Positions 3,304-62,056 of a stretch of 62,056 nt of DNA are shown here, one piece after another (position 1 is the first letter of the stretch; each line of letters opens with the position of its first letter). Both the position numbers and the translations under genes were made by a program. Source of the DNA: a virus. The notes beneath the pieces are model-generated. The model saw only the letters and a program-made list of their open reading frames with translations, had not been told where the DNA came from and did no database searches. The DNA is taken from positions 1-62,056 of IMG/VR virus record IMGVR_UViG_3300012920_000038. One strand, given 5' to 3'.

Positions 3304-4518
3304 ATGCTGATCAACAAAATAGGTACCGTGCCAGGTGGTAATGTTCCGCAATCGTTCACTCAATCTTTCATCTCGAGCAAGTCAACCCAACAAAAACAAC
3401 CAGTCAAACCGAAAGCAGATCAGAAGCGCGGATTGAATTATTATGCGGATTTTAGCGGGTGTGGCCATTGGAGAATGATCTGGCCGGAAACAGTACTAAA
3501 TGCATATCAACAATGCGTAGTGCACGGTTCAACATCCATGTTATTAGATCCAAGCATATATGAGCATGTTGATACGGTCCGGATACAGAGACAAGCCAGT
3601 CCGACACAATTAACATTTGTTAAACATCTGAAAAGCATACAGAAAAAACATCCGTTCAATTTGATATATGAGATTGATGACGTGCTGTTTCATGAGGATA
3701 TCCCCGATTATAATAAGTTTAAGAAAGCATTTGTACCAGACGATATACGAGTGAGTGCACAAGAGATAATCGAGCTATGCGATGAAGTCACAGTCACATG
3801 CGATTACATGAAAGAATATTTCAAGTCAAAAACAAACAACAAAAATGTGACCGTGATACCTAATTATATTCCTAGATTCTGGATGGATAGGTATTATGAT
3901 GAGAAGCAAAAGACGATTGAATATGACAAAAATGTTAAGAAGAAGCGTCGTCCAAGAGTGCTATGGAGCGGTTCCGGTGCACACTTTGACACAACGGGTG
4001 CAGGTTATGACGACTTCTCACATGTTGTTGATGTTGTCAAAAAAACACTCAAGAAATATCAATGGGTGTTCATGGGTGCAGTACCAAGAGCATTAGCTCA
4101 GCATGTCAAGTCCGGTGAAATTGAATTTCATAACTGGGTTCCTATACTCGACTATCCTCGTGCGGTGCATAAATTGAACGCTACTGTCGCTGTCGCTCCG
4201 TTACATGACAACCCGTTCAACAATTCCAAAAGCGACTTGAAATATATTGAAGCTGGTGCATTGGGTACCCCGGTCGTTTGTCAAGACATGCACACATACA
4301 AGAATACACCATTGGTGTTTCGGACAGGTGATGAGCTTGTAGATCAAATTGATAATGTTGTCCGGTCAAAAAATGATTATATGAAATGGGTTCGAAGATT
4401 TCGTTCCGGTGTGGAGTCAAGATGGCTAGAGGATAATGTAGATGTGTATAGTGAGCTGTACAGCTTACCACATGGTGATCCTCGAAGACAAAAAATTTCA
4501 AATTTGAATTGCATTTAA
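3304..4518 (+). CDS. Glycosyltransferase, GT-B fold (GT4-like)
   Basis: A 404-aa protein with the layout of retaining GT-B enzymes of the GT4 type. The N-terminal half has YEIDDVLFHEDIP near residue 120. The C-terminal half has VLWSGSGAHFD near 219, VAVAPLHDNPFNNSKS near 295 and KYIEAGALGTPVV near 315, the usual nucleotide-sugar site with its acidic Glu. The substrate cannot be read from sequence; virion proteins, DNA bases or host surface sugars are possible. The late-type heptamer ATAAGTA lies 6 nt before the ATG, which suggests late expression and favours a virion or host-envelope target. It sits between gp46 and gp43. Confidence 0.8.
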   Translation: MLINKIGTVPGGNVPQSFTQSFISSKSTQQKQPVKPKADQKRGLNYYADFSGCGHWRMIWPETVLNAYQQCVVHGSTSMLLDPSIYEHVDTVRIQRQASPTQLTFVKHLKSIQKKHPFNLIYEIDDVLFHEDIPDYNKFKKAFVPDDIRVSAQEIIELCDEVTVTCDYMKEYFKSKTNNKNVTVIPNYIPRFWMDRYYDEKQKTIEYDKNVKKKRRPRVLWSGSGAHFDTTGAGYDDFSHVVDVVKKTLKKYQWVFMGAVPRALAQHVKSGEIEFHNWVPILDYPRAVHKLNATVAVAPLHDNPFNNSKSDLKYIEAGALGTPVVCQDMHTYKNTPLVFRTGDELVDQIDNVVRSKNDYMKWVRRFRSGVESRWLEDNVDVYSELYSLPHGDPRRQKISNLNCI

Positions 4519-8748: not shown

Positions 8749-9813
8749 ATGACGACTATAGAAAAAGATGTATTGAAAATATTTGACAAGCTTGACAAAC
8801 TGAATCCAGAAGCAAAATTTCTATCTGAATCTGCACTGTCAAGTGTGACAGAGTGGCATGACACCGGTTGCATGGTGCTCAATGCTGTTGTGTCTGGTAG
8901 TTTGTATGGTGGTTTACCCAAAGGTCGTATTGTAGGATTTGCAGGGCCTTCCCAAGCCGGTAAGACATACATCACAAACAAAATTCTAGCCAAGGCGCAA
9001 CAACAAGGAATGATTCCAGTGATCTTTGACACTGAGATGGCTGTTGATGAAGCTGCATGTGCAAGCGTGGGATTGGACTCGTCAAAAGTCAAGTATGTAC
9101 CTGTACAGACAGTTGAAGATTGCCGTAACCAGCTAGTCGCATTCCTTGACAGTATTGTCGAAGCCGGTGCACAAGGAAAATTTATCATATGCATAGACTC
9201 TCTGGGTAATCTAGCATCTCAAAAAGAAATCGATGATGTAGAAAAAGGCAAAACAGCAATGGACATGGGCACACGAGCCAAAGGATTGAAGAGCATGATG
9301 AGAACATTGACGTTCAAAGCAGCACATGCTAACACGACAATAATGTTCGTGAACCACACTTATGATGACCCGGCTGCAATGTTTCCTACATTGGTCAAAC
9401 AACAATCAGGTGGCAAAGGTCCGATTTACTTAGCAAGTGTGTTGGTGCAATTAGCGAAACGAGATGAAAAGCAAGACAAGAACAACGAAGAAGATGAAAT
9501 GTTACCGGATGCAAACAAGTACAGTGGTGTGACATTACGAGCACTTACTGTCAAGAACAGATTCATTCCTCCGTTTCTTGAGACTGAGATGTACCTGAAT
9601 TTCAAAACCGGATTGGACAAGTACTCTGGTTTGAGAGAGATGGCCATTAATCACGGTGCACTCATACAAAATGGTAGCACATACAGTTTACCCGGTGACG
9701 GTGGTAAGCTAGGCTACTTTAAAAATTGGTGTAAGAACACAGAAATTTGGGATGAAAAAATTCTCCCGGTGCTTGAAGAGAAGTTACAACAAGCTTTTAG
9801 ATACGGTAGTTAA
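8749..9813 (+). CDS. uvsX: RecA-like recombinase UvsX
   Basis: Strand-exchange ATPase for recombination-dependent replication. The RecA core shows LPKGRIVGFAGPSQAGKT with Walker A at residues 66-73, the Walker B strand FIICIDSLGNL near 145-155, and TIMFVNHTYDD near 201. Length 354 aa, somewhat shorter than T4 UvsX. It has its own early promoter (TTGCAT-16-TATAAT) with the ATG 8 nt after the -10 box. Its stop is the tetramer TTAA shared with the convergent gene on the other strand. Confidence 0.96.
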   Translation: MTTIEKDVLKIFDKLDKLNPEAKFLSESALSSVTEWHDTGCMVLNAVVSGSLYGGLPKGRIVGFAGPSQAGKTYITNKILAKAQQQGMIPVIFDTEMAVDEAACASVGLDSSKVKYVPVQTVEDCRNQLVAFLDSIVEAGAQGKFIICIDSLGNLASQKEIDDVEKGKTAMDMGTRAKGLKSMMRTLTFKAAHANTTIMFVNHTYDDPAAMFPTLVKQQSGGKGPIYLASVLVQLAKRDEKQDKNNEEDEMLPDANKYSGVTLRALTVKNRFIPPFLETEMYLNFKTGLDKYSGLREMAINHGALIQNGSTYSLPGDGGKLGYFKNWCKNTEIWDEKILPVLEEKLQQAFRYGS

Positions 9814-10001
9814 TTCTCCGCGCCTGGTTTTTTTACATCTTCAACTTTGACTAAACCTTTGCGAACAAACTGTCCGGAGCTAGGGCAAATCCAATGTGCC
9901 TCAGTGTACAATTTACCGAGATACTCACGTGTTCTAAGTCTGGGTCTGATTAAATCACCTGTGTATGGTGATCGTATAGGTTGTGGGTTAACAAAGTCCA
10001 T
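9810..10001 (-). CDS. Small unknown protein (63 aa), leftward late gene
   Basis: Starts MDFVNPQPIRSPYTG and has a compact core (REYLGKLYTEAHWICPSSGQF) with one cysteine. I do not recognise the family. It is real by context: a late heptamer CTAAATA stands exactly 5 nt before its ATG, it fills the space between uvsX and queC, and its stop overlaps the uvsX stop in TTAA. Late timing suggests a virion or assembly role. Its transcript would be antisense to the end of uvsX if it read through. Confidence 0.72.
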   Translation of the reverse strand: MDFVNPQPIRSPYTGDLIRPRLRTREYLGKLYTEAHWICPSSGQFVRKGLVKVEDVKKPGAEN

Positions 10002-10050: not shown

Positions 10051-10749
10051 ATGAGTAAGAAATGTGTTATTCCAGTCAGTGGAGGTATAGATTCTACAGT
10101 AATATTGCATTGGGTTGCATCTGAAGGTATAGAGGTACATGCTGTGAGTTACAATTATGGTCAAAGACATTTCGATAAAGAGATGGAATGTGCTGTAGCG
10201 AATTGCGAAAAGATCGCAAAGACGCACAAAGTTTTGAATTTAGATTTTTTTAAAGACATAGTGAGTACTAGCTCGTTGATCAACAAAGATATTGACGTTG
10301 CGAAAACAAAAGATGTACTAGGTGATCCACAAACTGTAAATTATGTACCCAACAGAAACATGATGATGTTGTCAATATGCACAGCATATGCAGAATCCAT
10401 AGGAGCCACACAAGTATACCATGGTGCTGCGTTAGTCGATAGTCAAGCTGGTTATTGGGACGGTTCCAGAGAATTTTTACATGCTATCAACAAAGTGAAT
10501 GAACTGAATCGCAGAGATCGTATTGAAATACTTGCACCGTTAATTACCAAGAGTAAAAAAGACATTATTGAACTAGGAGTGTCATCTGGTGTAGATTTTG
10601 CATCAACATGGACGTGTTACGAGGGTAGAGACAAAGCATGCGGCCTTTGCCCAGCATGCAGCTCAAGAATAAAAGGCTTTATCGATGCCGGTGTTAGAGA
10701 TCCATTACAATATGAGATTGACATTCCGTGGGAAAAATATAACTGTTAA
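10051..10749 (+). CDS. queC: 7-cyano-7-deazaguanine (preQ0) synthase QueC
   Basis: ATP-dependent enzyme that converts 7-carboxy-7-deazaguanine to preQ0, a precursor of queuosine and archaeosine. It has the PP-loop SGGIDS at residues 10-15, YNYGQRH at 34-40 and YVPNRN near 98, and the four zinc cysteines C189, C197, C200 and C203 in CGLCPACSSR. It looks full length (232 aa). No queD, queE, folE or dpdA is visible in this window. It leads an operon that continues with a glutamine amidotransferase; the TATAAT-containing promoter lies about 9 nt before the ATG. Confidence 0.95.
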   Translation: MSKKCVIPVSGGIDSTVILHWVASEGIEVHAVSYNYGQRHFDKEMECAVANCEKIAKTHKVLNLDFFKDIVSTSSLINKDIDVAKTKDVLGDPQTVNYVPNRNMMMLSICTAYAESIGATQVYHGAALVDSQAGYWDGSREFLHAINKVNELNRRDRIEILAPLITKSKKDIIELGVSSGVDFASTWTCYEGRDKACGLCPACSSRIKGFIDAGVRDPLQYEIDIPWEKYNC

Positions 10750-10753
10750 CAAT

Positions 10754-11461
10754 ATGTGTGGTATTTTCGGATCATTTAATTTTACAACCTACGAAACACT
10801 ATACAAGAAAAATTGTACACGTGGAAACTTCGCTGGTGGTTCAATATATGTCGAGCAGCGTACCGGTGACATGTATGCTAAAAAATGGTCTGGTACACAA
10901 ACAGAACAAGAATTAACTGGTGAATATAGCTTAGTACATCCCGGTATGATCTTCGCTGGTCACACTCAAGCTCCAACATCAGCAAACCGTGATTATAATT
11001 TCGATACAACACATCCATTTGAGCACGGTAGATGGATAGTGGCGCATAACGGTGTGCTAGAAAATGACCAAGAGCTAAGAAACGAATACTTGAAACAAGC
11101 CACCGGAAAATATAAAGGTGCAACTTTTAATGCATTGACCAGCACGGTAGACAGCGCCGTTATACCAGCTTTACTAGATGAATTATATATGGATGATGAT
11201 GTGGATGTACTGTCCGATATTTTCAATTTATTGAGAGGTACTTTTGCGGTTTGGGCATACAATAAACAAACAAGACAAATGTATATAGCCCGATCTGGTA
11301 GTACATTATTTGCTAACATTCCAGAGAGTGTATTTTCATCAGTGTTAATAGACGGAGTAGCTGATCAAGAATTACACCCCGGGGTGATTTACTGTATGAC
11401 AGTTGAAGGGTTAACCCAGGTTGGTAGCTTCGAATATGATAACCCATTTTTTATGTTTTAA
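10754..11461 (+). CDS. Class II glutamine amidotransferase (Ntn hydrolase), next to queC
   Basis: Glutaminase domain that would release ammonia from glutamine. The start is placed at the ATG giving MCGIFGSF, so that after Met removal Cys2 is the N-terminal nucleophile, as required in this family. GHTQAPTS near residue 60 holds the region equivalent to the conserved Arg-x-Pro loop (here without the usual Arg), HPFEHGRWIVAHNGVLEN near 77-94 holds the HNG and N motifs, and STVDSAVI near 126 fits the usual TDSE site. The protein (235 aa) is a stand-alone domain with no synthetase. Gat domains are fused to QueC in archaeosine-making GAT-QueC proteins; here the two are adjacent genes 4 nt apart. 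A role in making a formamidine such as archaeosine is an inference. Confidence 0.85.
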   Translation: MCGIFGSFNFTTYETLYKKNCTRGNFAGGSIYVEQRTGDMYAKKWSGTQTEQELTGEYSLVHPGMIFAGHTQAPTSANRDYNFDTTHPFEHGRWIVAHNGVLENDQELRNEYLKQATGKYKGATFNALTSTVDSAVIPALLDELYMDDDVDVLSDIFNLLRGTFAVWAYNKQTRQMYIARSGSTLFANIPESVFSSVLIDGVADQELHPGVIYCMTVEGLTQVGSFEYDNPFFMF

Positions 11462-11462
11462 T

Positions 11463-11660
11463 ATGAACTATAGAATCGAATACAGAATAGACAATTACAT
11501 GAGTACACATTATAAATTTGTACAAGCACGCGACCCGGAGCAAGCAGAGCAACAATTTCAACAGGTAATTGACGAGCAAATACCAGAAGCAAATGTCAAT
11601 ATAGTTGAGATGTCATTAGTTGTTGAAAAAAACGACGCGATTGTGACAATCCCAGCATGA
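11463..11660 (+). CDS. Small unknown protein (65 aa)
   Basis: Starts MNYRIEYRIDN directly after the amidotransferase stop (1 nt gap). A longer reading from a GTG at 11421 would overlap that gene and is not needed. The predicted fold alternates strand and helix (YRIEYRI, EQAEQQFQQVIDEQI, NVNIVEMSLVVE), like small ferredoxin-type alpha/beta domains. No catalytic motif is visible. It ends in an ATGA overlap with the glycosyltransferase, so it is translationally coupled within the queC operon. Confidence 0.65.
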   Translation: MNYRIEYRIDNYMSTHYKFVQARDPEQAEQQFQQVIDEQIPEANVNIVEMSLVVEKNDAIVTIPA

Positions 11661-12331
11661 AGCCCATACTTGTTGTTTGTTGCACCAAAGGTAAAAAGGC
11701 TGATACAAAACTGTATCAGAGTCTCAGTATTATGTCTGGATCTGAAACGAAGCTTGTGTTTCACGAAAATAACACAACCGGGTTACCTGAGATATACAAC
11801 AAATATATTAACAAAAAAAGCTTGAAAAAACATGACATCGCGTTGTTTGTGCATGATGATGTTTATATAGATGATCTCAAGTTACGTGGCAAATTATACA
11901 GCTATGCAAATTCGTTCGATATAACAGGTGTAGCGGGCTGTATCAAACCGGTTATTCGTGAACCAGCGTTATGGCATTTAATGTCAGATAGAAAAAATCA
12001 TCGCGGTTATGTATCTCATGCATTGACAACACCACATGGTGAACCGGGGGTGATGTGTTCATCATTTGGTTATACACCGAGCCGAGTTGTAATGATTGAC
12101 GGTCTGTTCATGGCTGTGAACCTTAAAAAGGCTATACAGAAAGACTGGATGTTTAACACCAATTTTAAATTTCATCATTACGATCTATCGAGTTGTCTGG
12201 ACGCTAATAAAAAACAGTTGCGTATTGGAGTGGCTCCTATTAATATCATACATGATTCTCCTGGTTTGAATTCACTAAATGATAAGGGTTTTCAGGAATC
12301 ACAAGACACATTTTTAAATTTATATAAATGA
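11657..12331 (+). CDS. Glycosyltransferase, GT-A fold (GT2-like)
   Basis: A 224-aa protein that looks like a small GT-A glycosyltransferase. It opens with a strand PILVVCCTKG, and FVHDDVYID near residue 64 supplies the DxD-like metal and nucleotide-sugar motif. DGLFMAVN near 149 and HHYDLSSCLD near 174 match the usual acceptor-side region, and IIHDSPG near 203 supplies a late histidine. The acceptor is unknown. It lies between the 65-aa gene and helicase gp41 with ATGA overlaps on both sides, so it is expressed early with queC. An early glycosyltransferase could modify DNA bases, but sequence alone does not show this. Confidence 0.7.
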   Translation: MKPILVVCCTKGKKADTKLYQSLSIMSGSETKLVFHENNTTGLPEIYNKYINKKSLKKHDIALFVHDDVYIDDLKLRGKLYSYANSFDITGVAGCIKPVIREPALWHLMSDRKNHRGYVSHALTTPHGEPGVMCSSFGYTPSRVVMIDGLFMAVNLKKAIQKDWMFNTNFKFHHYDLSSCLDANKKQLRIGVAPINIIHDSPGLNSLNDKGFQESQDTFLNLYK

Positions 12332-18486: not shown

Positions 18487-19395
18487 ATGAATGTATTGAT
18501 ACTCGGCAACGGCTACATTGGTAATCATTTGTACAAGCATCTCATGTTTGATAACACGTGTGTTATTTTTTCAAGAAAGAATTTAGATTACACTGTTGAG
18601 CAAAAACTAGTCGACTACATCACAGAGAATCAAATCGACTGTGTCATTAATGCAAGTGGTTATACTGGTAAACCAAACGTGGATGCATGTGAAGATGATA
18701 AACAAGCATGCTGGTACAACAATGTTGTCGTGCCAAAAATAATTGAACAAGCATGCAAGCGTGTTGATTTATATACTGATTATATCGGATCTGATAAACG
18801 TAGACATATACTGTATTTGCATGTATCGAGTGGGTGTATATACACCGGGTACAATAAACCTTACACAGAGGAAGACGAACCTAACTTTGGTTTGTATAAT
18901 AAGAGTAGCTGGTACAGCAAAACCAAGCACGCAGGTGAGACTGTCCTGGACAAAAACTACACAACAATATTGCGAATTCGAATGCCTTTTTCTTCATGCA
19001 TGAGCGATCGAAACTTTATCATGAAAATGTTAACATATGACAATCTTGTGAGTCATATGAACAGCATGACATGTGTTGAAGATCTATGTTATTTTGTCGC
19101 AACAGTGATCGACATGTCATTAATGTATACTGAATCGCTGGCTGGTATTTACAATGTTGTACATTCAACACCTACATGTGCTCACAACATCGTGCACTTG
19201 TTACAATCCAAAGGAATTGATAAAAATTTTAAATTCGACGATACAAAAATAGTCATGAAAGCGCCAAGAAGTAATTGCATTCTATCTGATGATAAGATAC
19301 AATCATATAATATGCCGTTACCAGATATTAACAAATCATTAGAAAACGCAATATCAAATGTCGCTGAAAAATACAATAAAGAAAGCATTTGGTAG
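18487..19395 (+). CDS. NAD(P)-dependent sugar-nucleotide reductase/epimerase (RmlD-like SDR)
   Basis: Extended short-chain dehydrogenase. The Rossmann glycine motif is GNGYIGNH at residues 7-14. VINASGYTGKPNVDACEDD near 55-73 resembles the RmlD motif with a conserved VD, HVSSGCIYTG carries the catalytic Ser, and YSKTKHAGE carries the catalytic Tyr-x3-Lys. The closest functional type is dTDP-4-dehydrorhamnose reductase, though the exact nucleotide sugar is not determinable. With the two glycosyltransferases in this window it suggests that the phage makes or diverts an activated deoxysugar. It is inserted in the replication operon just before RNase H. Confidence 0.8.
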   Translation: MNVLILGNGYIGNHLYKHLMFDNTCVIFSRKNLDYTVEQKLVDYITENQIDCVINASGYTGKPNVDACEDDKQACWYNNVVVPKIIEQACKRVDLYTDYIGSDKRRHILYLHVSSGCIYTGYNKPYTEEDEPNFGLYNKSSWYSKTKHAGETVLDKNYTTILRIRMPFSSCMSDRNFIMKMLTYDNLVSHMNSMTCVEDLCYFVATVIDMSLMYTESLAGIYNVVHSTPTCAHNIVHLLQSKGIDKNFKFDDTKIVMKAPRSNCILSDDKIQSYNMPLPDINKSLENAISNVAEKYNKESIW

Positions 19396-61245: not shown

Positions 61246-62056
61246 AACTAACAGAAGAGTATAACTATGGATGGTACGGACAATGTGGTTCTGATCCTTG
61301 TGAGCCTCTGGATCTAAACTCATACACAAACACAATTGCAGCTGTCTTTCAAATAAACGAAGATGGTAATAGTTATGTTAATTGGGACCCAAACAGACCA
61401 GCGCTTCTGAATCGGTTCACCACACTAGAGTGTGGACGAGCATACAACATCCGGCTCACACAACAAGCCCTGGATTCAGGTGGTGTTGACATACCTAATT
61501 TTATCAGAACTGACGAAGGAACCACAGGTGCGATCAAGCTGTTGGCTGACGGTTGTGCTGCAGCAAGTCAACCAACACCTACACCAGCTGCCACACAAAA
61601 ACCGGTGCGACCGCCAAACCGACCTGACCCGACACCGGTACCAACACCCACTTTACGTCGTGCACCTACACCGTTTCCTACACCAACCCTACGACCCACA
61701 CCAACATTACGACCCACACCGACATTACGAGCGATTCCACCAGATGGTGTACCACTACCAACGCCAACTGCGTTTCCTCCCCCGACACCATACCCGTCCC
61801 CGACACTCCGTCCAGATCCAACACCGTACCCGACATTAACGTTACGTCCAACACCCACACCATACCCCACACCAACAGCGTATGAACCGTACCGACCTAT
61901 AAGACCTCCTAACCGACCGGACCCCACACCGTATCCTACACCAACACCATATCCAACACCAACAGCGTATCCTCGTCCAACAAACCGTCCGGATCCAACG
62001 CCGTATACAATCACCTCGACACCATTACCGACATTGACGTTGTATCCAACGCTAAC
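61242..62056 (+). CDS. Fibre-like protein with long Pro-Thr repeats (3' partial)
   Basis: The start ATG overlaps the previous stop (ATGA). No stop occurs before the window ends, so at least 271 codons belong to it. N-terminal globular domain of about 105 residues ([19 protein letters not shown] to LLADGCAAA) with five cysteines, then continuous Pro-Thr-rich repeats ([40 protein letters not shown]) to the end. The N-terminal domain resembles small fibre-tip carbohydrate modules only in outline. The repeat tract is likely an extended linker to a further distal domain outside the window. Confidence 0.7.
61568..62056 (+). repeat. Long Pro-Thr repeat tract at the window end
   Basis: Imperfect repeats such as CGACCCACACCAACATTA (RPTPTL) and CCGTATCCTACACCAACA (PYPTPT) continue to the end of the window. 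The tract is at least 160 codons long. Confidence 0.85.

Follow-up and report, generated by a model that had tools for sequence, protein, structure and literature searches.

The window, that is, the whole stretch of 62,056 nucleotides analysed here, is a 62-kb linear IMG/VR fragment with T4-like replication and tail genes, whose gp43 is only ~33% identical to that of cultured phages. It carries two intact, adjacent ORFs (Table 1): the first encodes QueC and ends with a stop codon at 10747-10749; the second begins MCGIFG at 10754, after a gap of 4 nt, and encodes a stand-alone class II glutamine amidotransferase (GAT). The first-pass annotation had described a full QueC with zinc cysteines, followed after 4 nt by an amidotransferase beginning MCGIFG, and the coordinates, the PF06508 match and the zinc-binding Cys4 set (Cys 189/197/200/203) all agree with that description.

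Table 1. Genes of the QueC-GAT locus and their positions in the window
Feature	Position	Strand	Evidence
QueC (7-cyano-7-deazaguanine synthase), 232 aa	10051..10749	+	PF06508 E 1e-56; PDB queC 3bl5; motif tally
Stand-alone class II GAT, 235 aa	10754..11461	+	GATase_6; alignment; AlphaFold + Foldseek
Small ORF, 65 aa, between GAT and glycosyltransferase	11463..11660	+	found in some close relatives only
GT-A-like glycosyltransferase	11657..12331	+	PF13712 E 3e-8

The small ORF downstream of the GAT is given no pathway assignment. The PF13712 glycosyltransferase usually adjoins the GAT, and several sister contigs without QueC and GAT keep it in the same synteny. We considered it as a pathway member that glycosylates the base and rejected this role, because sister phages retain it without QueC, GAT, FolE, QueD or QueE; we judge it to be a neighbour outside the pathway. 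Upstream, between uvsX and queC, a 63-aa ORF on the minus strand (9810-10001) is conserved in many relatives, in some cases at a different genomic position. Among the replication genes, 18487-19395 and 3304-4518 encode an RmlD-like sugar-nucleotide reductase and a group 1 glycosyltransferase-like protein, and a repetitive low-complexity stretch (minus-strand reading) lies near the contig end at 61568-62014. Rfam and tRNA scans of the whole window returned no matches.

The window QueC matches PF06508 with 192 bits (E 1e-56; cut-off 22) and the PDB queC entry 3bl5 with an E value of 3e-24, and it carries SGGIDS (starting at residue 10), YGQRHFDKE (36), VPNRN (99) and CYEGRDKACGLCPAC (189). The motifs of canonical QueC (PF06508 cluster 1), SGGxDS, YxQxHxxE, VPxRN and CY...CxxCxxC, are present in the window and in 79-80 of 80 related QueC sequences; the phage motifs deviate by an extra residue before the E and by a first Cys spacing of x7, where the canonical spacing is x8. 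The substrate motif reads [YF]WD[GS] in 80/80 related sequences (YWDG in the window) and YPDC in none of the 80, with the aromatic residue and the Asp retained. Mutants of E. coli QueC have defined its important motifs, in which Y131 of YPDC is essential and F is partly active (PMC13329287); the window QueC keeps all of them, YPDC excepted. We considered and rejected a QueC for protein deazaguanylation (Cap9/QatC-like): the PDB search matches Cap9 weakly, and the canonical full-length motifs and the pathway context oppose this role.

The GAT matches GATase_6 (E 9e-11) and GATase_7 (E 1e-8), and its AlphaFold model (pLDDT 89.5) has the glutaminase domain of GlmS as best Foldseek match (E 4e-11, TM 0.73), with EgtC, an Ntn hydrolase of ergothioneine synthesis, among the other structural neighbours. 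The marks of class II GATs are conserved across the phage family (MC in 79/80, HNG in 80/80), and the model of the window protein shows the Ntn fold of GlmS glutaminase. By alignment, the window protein keeps the Cys2 nucleophile, HNG and D133, the Asp of the amino-group site; it has Gln72 where GlmS has Arg73. The exchange is general: all 80 phage GATs and the homologues of nt-1, KVP40, D484 and 6E35.1a read HxQxPT in place of the usual HxRxxT, whereas HxR is found in 17/17 cellular class II GATs from the same profile search, none of which lies near QueC. In GlmS, the substrate-loop Arg binds the glutamine carboxylate; with Gln in its place, glutamine use by the phage GAT is therefore not certain.

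Cultured relatives of the window GAT are distant, with ~25% identity in the best tblastn matches. Members of the Gln-type family lie directly after QueC in Vibrio phages nt-1, KVP40, D484 and 6E35.1a (HMM E 3e-20 to 5e-20). The post-QueC "hypothetical protein" of these phages is thus a Gln-type class II GAT in nt-1 (L117:25099-25707, YP_008125324), KVP40 (KVP40.0125) and 6E35.1a (p0048); the KVP40 record for KVP40.0125 gives a PF00310 match only.

In the IMG/VR QueC search, each of the 80 loci of the closest QueC relatives has a GAT downstream, so the pairing is not due to chance; in many of them the two genes are -1 to 4 nt apart. In others of the 80 they are separated by a GMP-reductase-like gene (~930 nt) or by one resembling dCMP deaminase. 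The dCMP deaminase-like and GMP reductase-like inserts, at L013, L015 and L016 and at L033, L041, L072 and L077, belong to different subclades. Searches centred on GAT, glycosyltransferase and UvsX added 120 loci with both genes, whose gap has a median of 905 nt (range 9 to 2470), and 21 GAT loci without visible QueC; in each of the 21 the contig ends within 1358 nt upstream of the GAT, so that no locus clearly has the GAT while lacking QueC. QueC and GAT are separate ORFs in the window and at the related loci, not an archaeosine-type GAT-QueC fusion. Pairwise identities of QueC, GAT and glycosyltransferase all correlate with one another (0.84-0.93), which does not discriminate among them.

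Because the window is a fragment, genes absent from it mean little. The first-pass annotation saw no DpdA transglycosylase in the window, which is correct and reflects the fragment, and proposed looking for dpdA, queD, queE and folE in the rest of the genome; the relatives carry FolE, QueD, QueE and a putative DpdA3-type transglycosylase. A QueD homologue is present in 15 of 20 QueC-GAT records. On large contigs with both QueC and GAT, QueD and QueE are near neighbours, in most cases with FolE not far away, at a distance of roughly 15-25 kb from QueC; one such QueD/QueE-bearing contig, G014, has a QueC 72% identical to that of the window. The sister record G023 (236 kb) carries the glycosyltransferase and a kinase, and lacks FolE, QueD, QueE, QueC and GAT.

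Phyletic profiling of QueC-positive contigs against G023 revealed a second operon, present in the former and absent from the latter, that contains QueF, an AAA_28 kinase, a Formyl_trans_N protein, a 276-aa protein and sometimes an IMPDH/GMP-reductase protein. The QueF is recognized by QueF_N (E 2e-33) and QueF (E 4e-23) and carries the NADPH-site motif (ESKS-K) and the Cys/Asp motifs; the PurN-like formyltransferase (FT) matches Formyl_trans_N with an E value of 3e-16. The 276-aa protein matches no Pfam family; it shares 43% identity with a Flavobacterium phage immuto protein that is annotated as DNA guanine transglycosylase, and 41-43% with proteins from the CP220 group of Campylobacter phages. 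The model of its family (pLDDT 91.4) has tRNA-guanine transglycosylases (TGT) as all of its listed Foldseek matches (best E 3e-8). On the strength of homology and predicted fold, we call it a putative DpdA3-type DNA-guanine transglycosylase. The label follows Cui et al. 2023, where DpdA3, a formyltransferase DpdN and the base fdPreQ1 are reportedly described and the DpdA3 subfamily is said to permit complete guanine replacement.

Phyletic profiling was the only approach that found this enzyme. A Pfam TGT scan of 20 relatives gave no match, a negative that we set aside because 9g DpdA and nt-1 DpdA2 likewise escape Pfam, and searches with PHROG DpdA families 887, 7068 and 10773 and, by tblastn, with nt-1 DpdA2 yielded no credible DpdA. 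A nucleotide-pool route, with phosphoribosyltransferase, kinase and polymerase in place of a transglycosylase, was dropped once DpdA3 was found.

Across 80 loci from a DpdA3 search, the operon order is DpdA3-(FT)-(GMPR)-AAA-(QueF), and the 69 loci with room contain AAA (69/69), QueF (63/69), FT (60/69) and GMPR (32/69). The AAA_28 gene (thymidylate-kinase-like) also accompanies DpdA3 in immuto (L364) and CP220 (L365), and thus in three phage lineages. Among L427, L434, L437, L438, L442 and L443 and L444, L446, L447 and L450, some loci have no match to the formyltransferase query and others match neither the QueF nor the formyltransferase query. As some DpdA3 loci lack the formyltransferase or QueF, the DNA base may vary within the clade. 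The purine phosphoribosyltransferase (PRT) of the relatives is closest to Gpt-type enzymes, and their GMP-reductase-like protein matches GMP reductase best in the PDB (E 8e-73, vs. 5e-47 for IMPDH); the two proteins occur in most large QueC-positive contigs, and G023 has neither.

Eight contigs (G001, G013, G021, G022, G024, G025, G026 and G045) carry QueC and GAT together with DpdA3, and seven of these (G013, G021, G022, G024, G025, G026 and G045) carry FolE, QueD, QueE, QueC and DpdA on the single contig; of this set of five the window itself contains QueC only, and besides QueC and GAT no gene in the window belongs to the pathway. G005 holds QueC, GAT and glycosyltransferase and the end of FolE, its QueC being 67% identical to that of the window, and G041 holds DpdA3, FT, AAA, QueF and PRT; the two come from one metagenome, have GC contents of 0.398 and 0.392 and a tetranucleotide r of 0.984, and match exactly over 127 bp at their ends. 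These features suggest two adjoining pieces of one genome. From relatives at 67-72% QueC identity, the nearest informative ones, FolE, QueD, QueE, DpdA3, QueF and formyltransferase are predicted to lie in the unsequenced remainder of the window phage.

The presence of FolE, QueD, QueE, QueC and DpdA3 in relatives makes 7-deazaguanine DNA modification, by which the phage would probably mask its genome, the likely purpose of these genes. The QueC-GAT pair is real, and its place in such a pathway is well supported by the relatives. Starting from gene identities, conservation, co-occurrence and folds, which are direct observations, we propose, with a probability of about two in three, that QueC-GAT makes preQ0 within a 7-deazaguanine DNA-modification pathway encoded by the phage, in which the GAT feeds ammonia to QueC and the base is preQ1 or formyl-preQ1. 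FolE, QueD and QueE, whose genes would lie in other parts of the genome, would make 7-carboxy-7-deazaguanine (CDG); the GAT would split glutamine and pass the ammonia to QueC; QueC would activate CDG with ATP and convert it by way of the amide to the nitrile (preQ0); QueF would reduce preQ0 to preQ1; and the DpdA3-type transglycosylase would exchange DNA guanine for the deaza base. The PurN-like formyltransferase probably adds a formyl group to the aminomethyl moiety, either before the base is inserted or afterwards, and the purine phosphoribosyltransferase and/or GMP reductase may recycle the displaced guanine. It is also possible, as a tentative extension, that the clade runs a self-contained 7-deazaguanine economy, with a glutamine-driven QueC, a DpdA3 that places N-formyl-preQ1 for much of the genomic guanine, recycling by phosphoribosyltransferase/GMP reductase, and a new Gln-type GAT family specialised for QueC.

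The assignment of the GAT as ammonia supplier draws on the variety of final steps with which it is found: QueF accompanies QueC-GAT in KVP40, D484 and 6E35.1a, an ArcS-core protein (DUF5591) in nt-1, and QueF plus formyltransferase in the clade. That the same GAT is combined with differing last steps is most simply explained if it supplies ammonia to QueC; its presence in all downstream branches argues against a formamidine-forming role. The Gln-type GAT family was searched for in immuto and CP220 and was not found; these DpdA3 phages have QueC without it, and the GAT is thus not essential to QueC chemistry. An improbable alternative is that the GAT no longer hydrolyses free glutamine and has become another Ntn hydrolase, whose substrate might be a 7-substituted deazaguanine or a glutamyl adduct, so that it trims or tailors the base. 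The invariant Gln of the 80 phage GATs and four Vibrio phage homologues, set against the Arg of the 17 cellular enzymes, and the kinship in fold with EgtC would fit such a change of substrate; however, Cys2, HNG and D133 are all retained, and ammonia supply is the simplest cause of the tight linkage to QueC, an ammonia-using enzyme.

We consider it distinctly improbable that the pair acts as a GAT-QueC in two pieces, turning preQ0 into a formamidine and leaving deoxyarchaeosine (dG+) in the phage DNA as in 9g. Excerpts of PMC6884629 report that the formamidine-forming role was shown for the fused GAT-QueC of 9g, which with DpdA yields dG+, and that in DNA of nt-1, a phage with the same stand-alone GAT beside QueC, dPreQ0 predominates and dADG and dG+ are present in traces (the latter 0.02% of G). 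The same excerpts attribute the nt-1 dG+ to ArcS and do not mention the post-QueC GAT gene, and the ArcS-core protein can indeed explain this trace. Moreover, DpdA3 is accompanied in the clade by a formyltransferase and by a QueF that has the ESKS-K and Cys/Asp motifs; 6E35.1a, which has QueC-GAT and QueF, has a DNA base reported as consistent with dPreQ1 at 15% of dG (PMC12028318); and the stand-alone GAT differs from the 9g GAT domain in having Gln for the substrate-loop Arg. The first-pass annotation had proposed that the pair could convert preQ0 to a formamidine, protecting phage DNA: its 7-deazaguanine DNA modification is borne out by the FolE-QueD-QueE-QueC-DpdA3 set of the relatives, and its formamidine is disfavoured by the evidence just given. 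In the clade of the window phage, preQ1 or formyl-preQ1 thus appears more likely than archaeosine. That the phage supplies preQ0 to host tRNA queuosine synthesis and leaves its DNA unmodified, a role already proposed for phages with preQ0 genes and no DpdA and compatible with the canonical catalytic motifs that QueC shares with the tRNA pathway, is very improbable, since the QueC-GAT relatives encode a DNA-type transglycosylase and a formyltransferase, both foreign to queuosine synthesis.

If true, the proposed role in ammonia supply would define a two-component, glutamine-dependent QueC and explain what is done by a GAT family that KVP40-type phage records list as hypothetical; in some of these phages DNA modifications have been measured. 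With this work, putative DpdA3-type DNA modification reaches into a large clade of uncultured T4-like phages, and the cost to a phage of exchanging many guanines becomes testable in terms of the nitrogen donor for QueC and the recycling of released guanine.

Four known systems can be set beside the clade. The Campylobacter phage CP220 group shares a DpdA homologue, at 43-45% identity, with a neighbouring AAA kinase, and dADG has been reported for Campylobacter phages. Enterobacteria phage 9g likewise couples a class II GAT to QueC in a DNA-modification pathway, but does so in one fused chain with an Arg-type GAT, a different DpdA type and dG+ as product. Flavobacterium phage vB_FspM_immuto has QueD-QueE-PRT-FolE and DpdA-formyltransferase-kinase-QueF, with the same order around DpdA, a thymidylate-kinase-like AAA protein and identities to the clade of 43-51% (DpdA), 44% (formyltransferase) and 45-46% (QueF); it differs in coming from another lineage, whose DNA polymerase is of family A, and its genes form one cluster. 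The KVP40/nt-1-type Vibrio phages (KVP40.0124/0125, nt-1 exsB/ORF392, 6E35.1a p0049/p0048) differ from the clade in using DpdA2 rather than DpdA3, in clustering their genes in one place and in showing no formyltransferase in the stretch examined, and their GAT, at ~202 aa, is only ~24-28% identical; they share with the clade the QueC-GAT order, the Gln-type GAT (HMM E ~3e-20) and a FolE/QueD/transglycosylase pathway, for which DNA modification has been measured in nt-1 and 6E35.1a.
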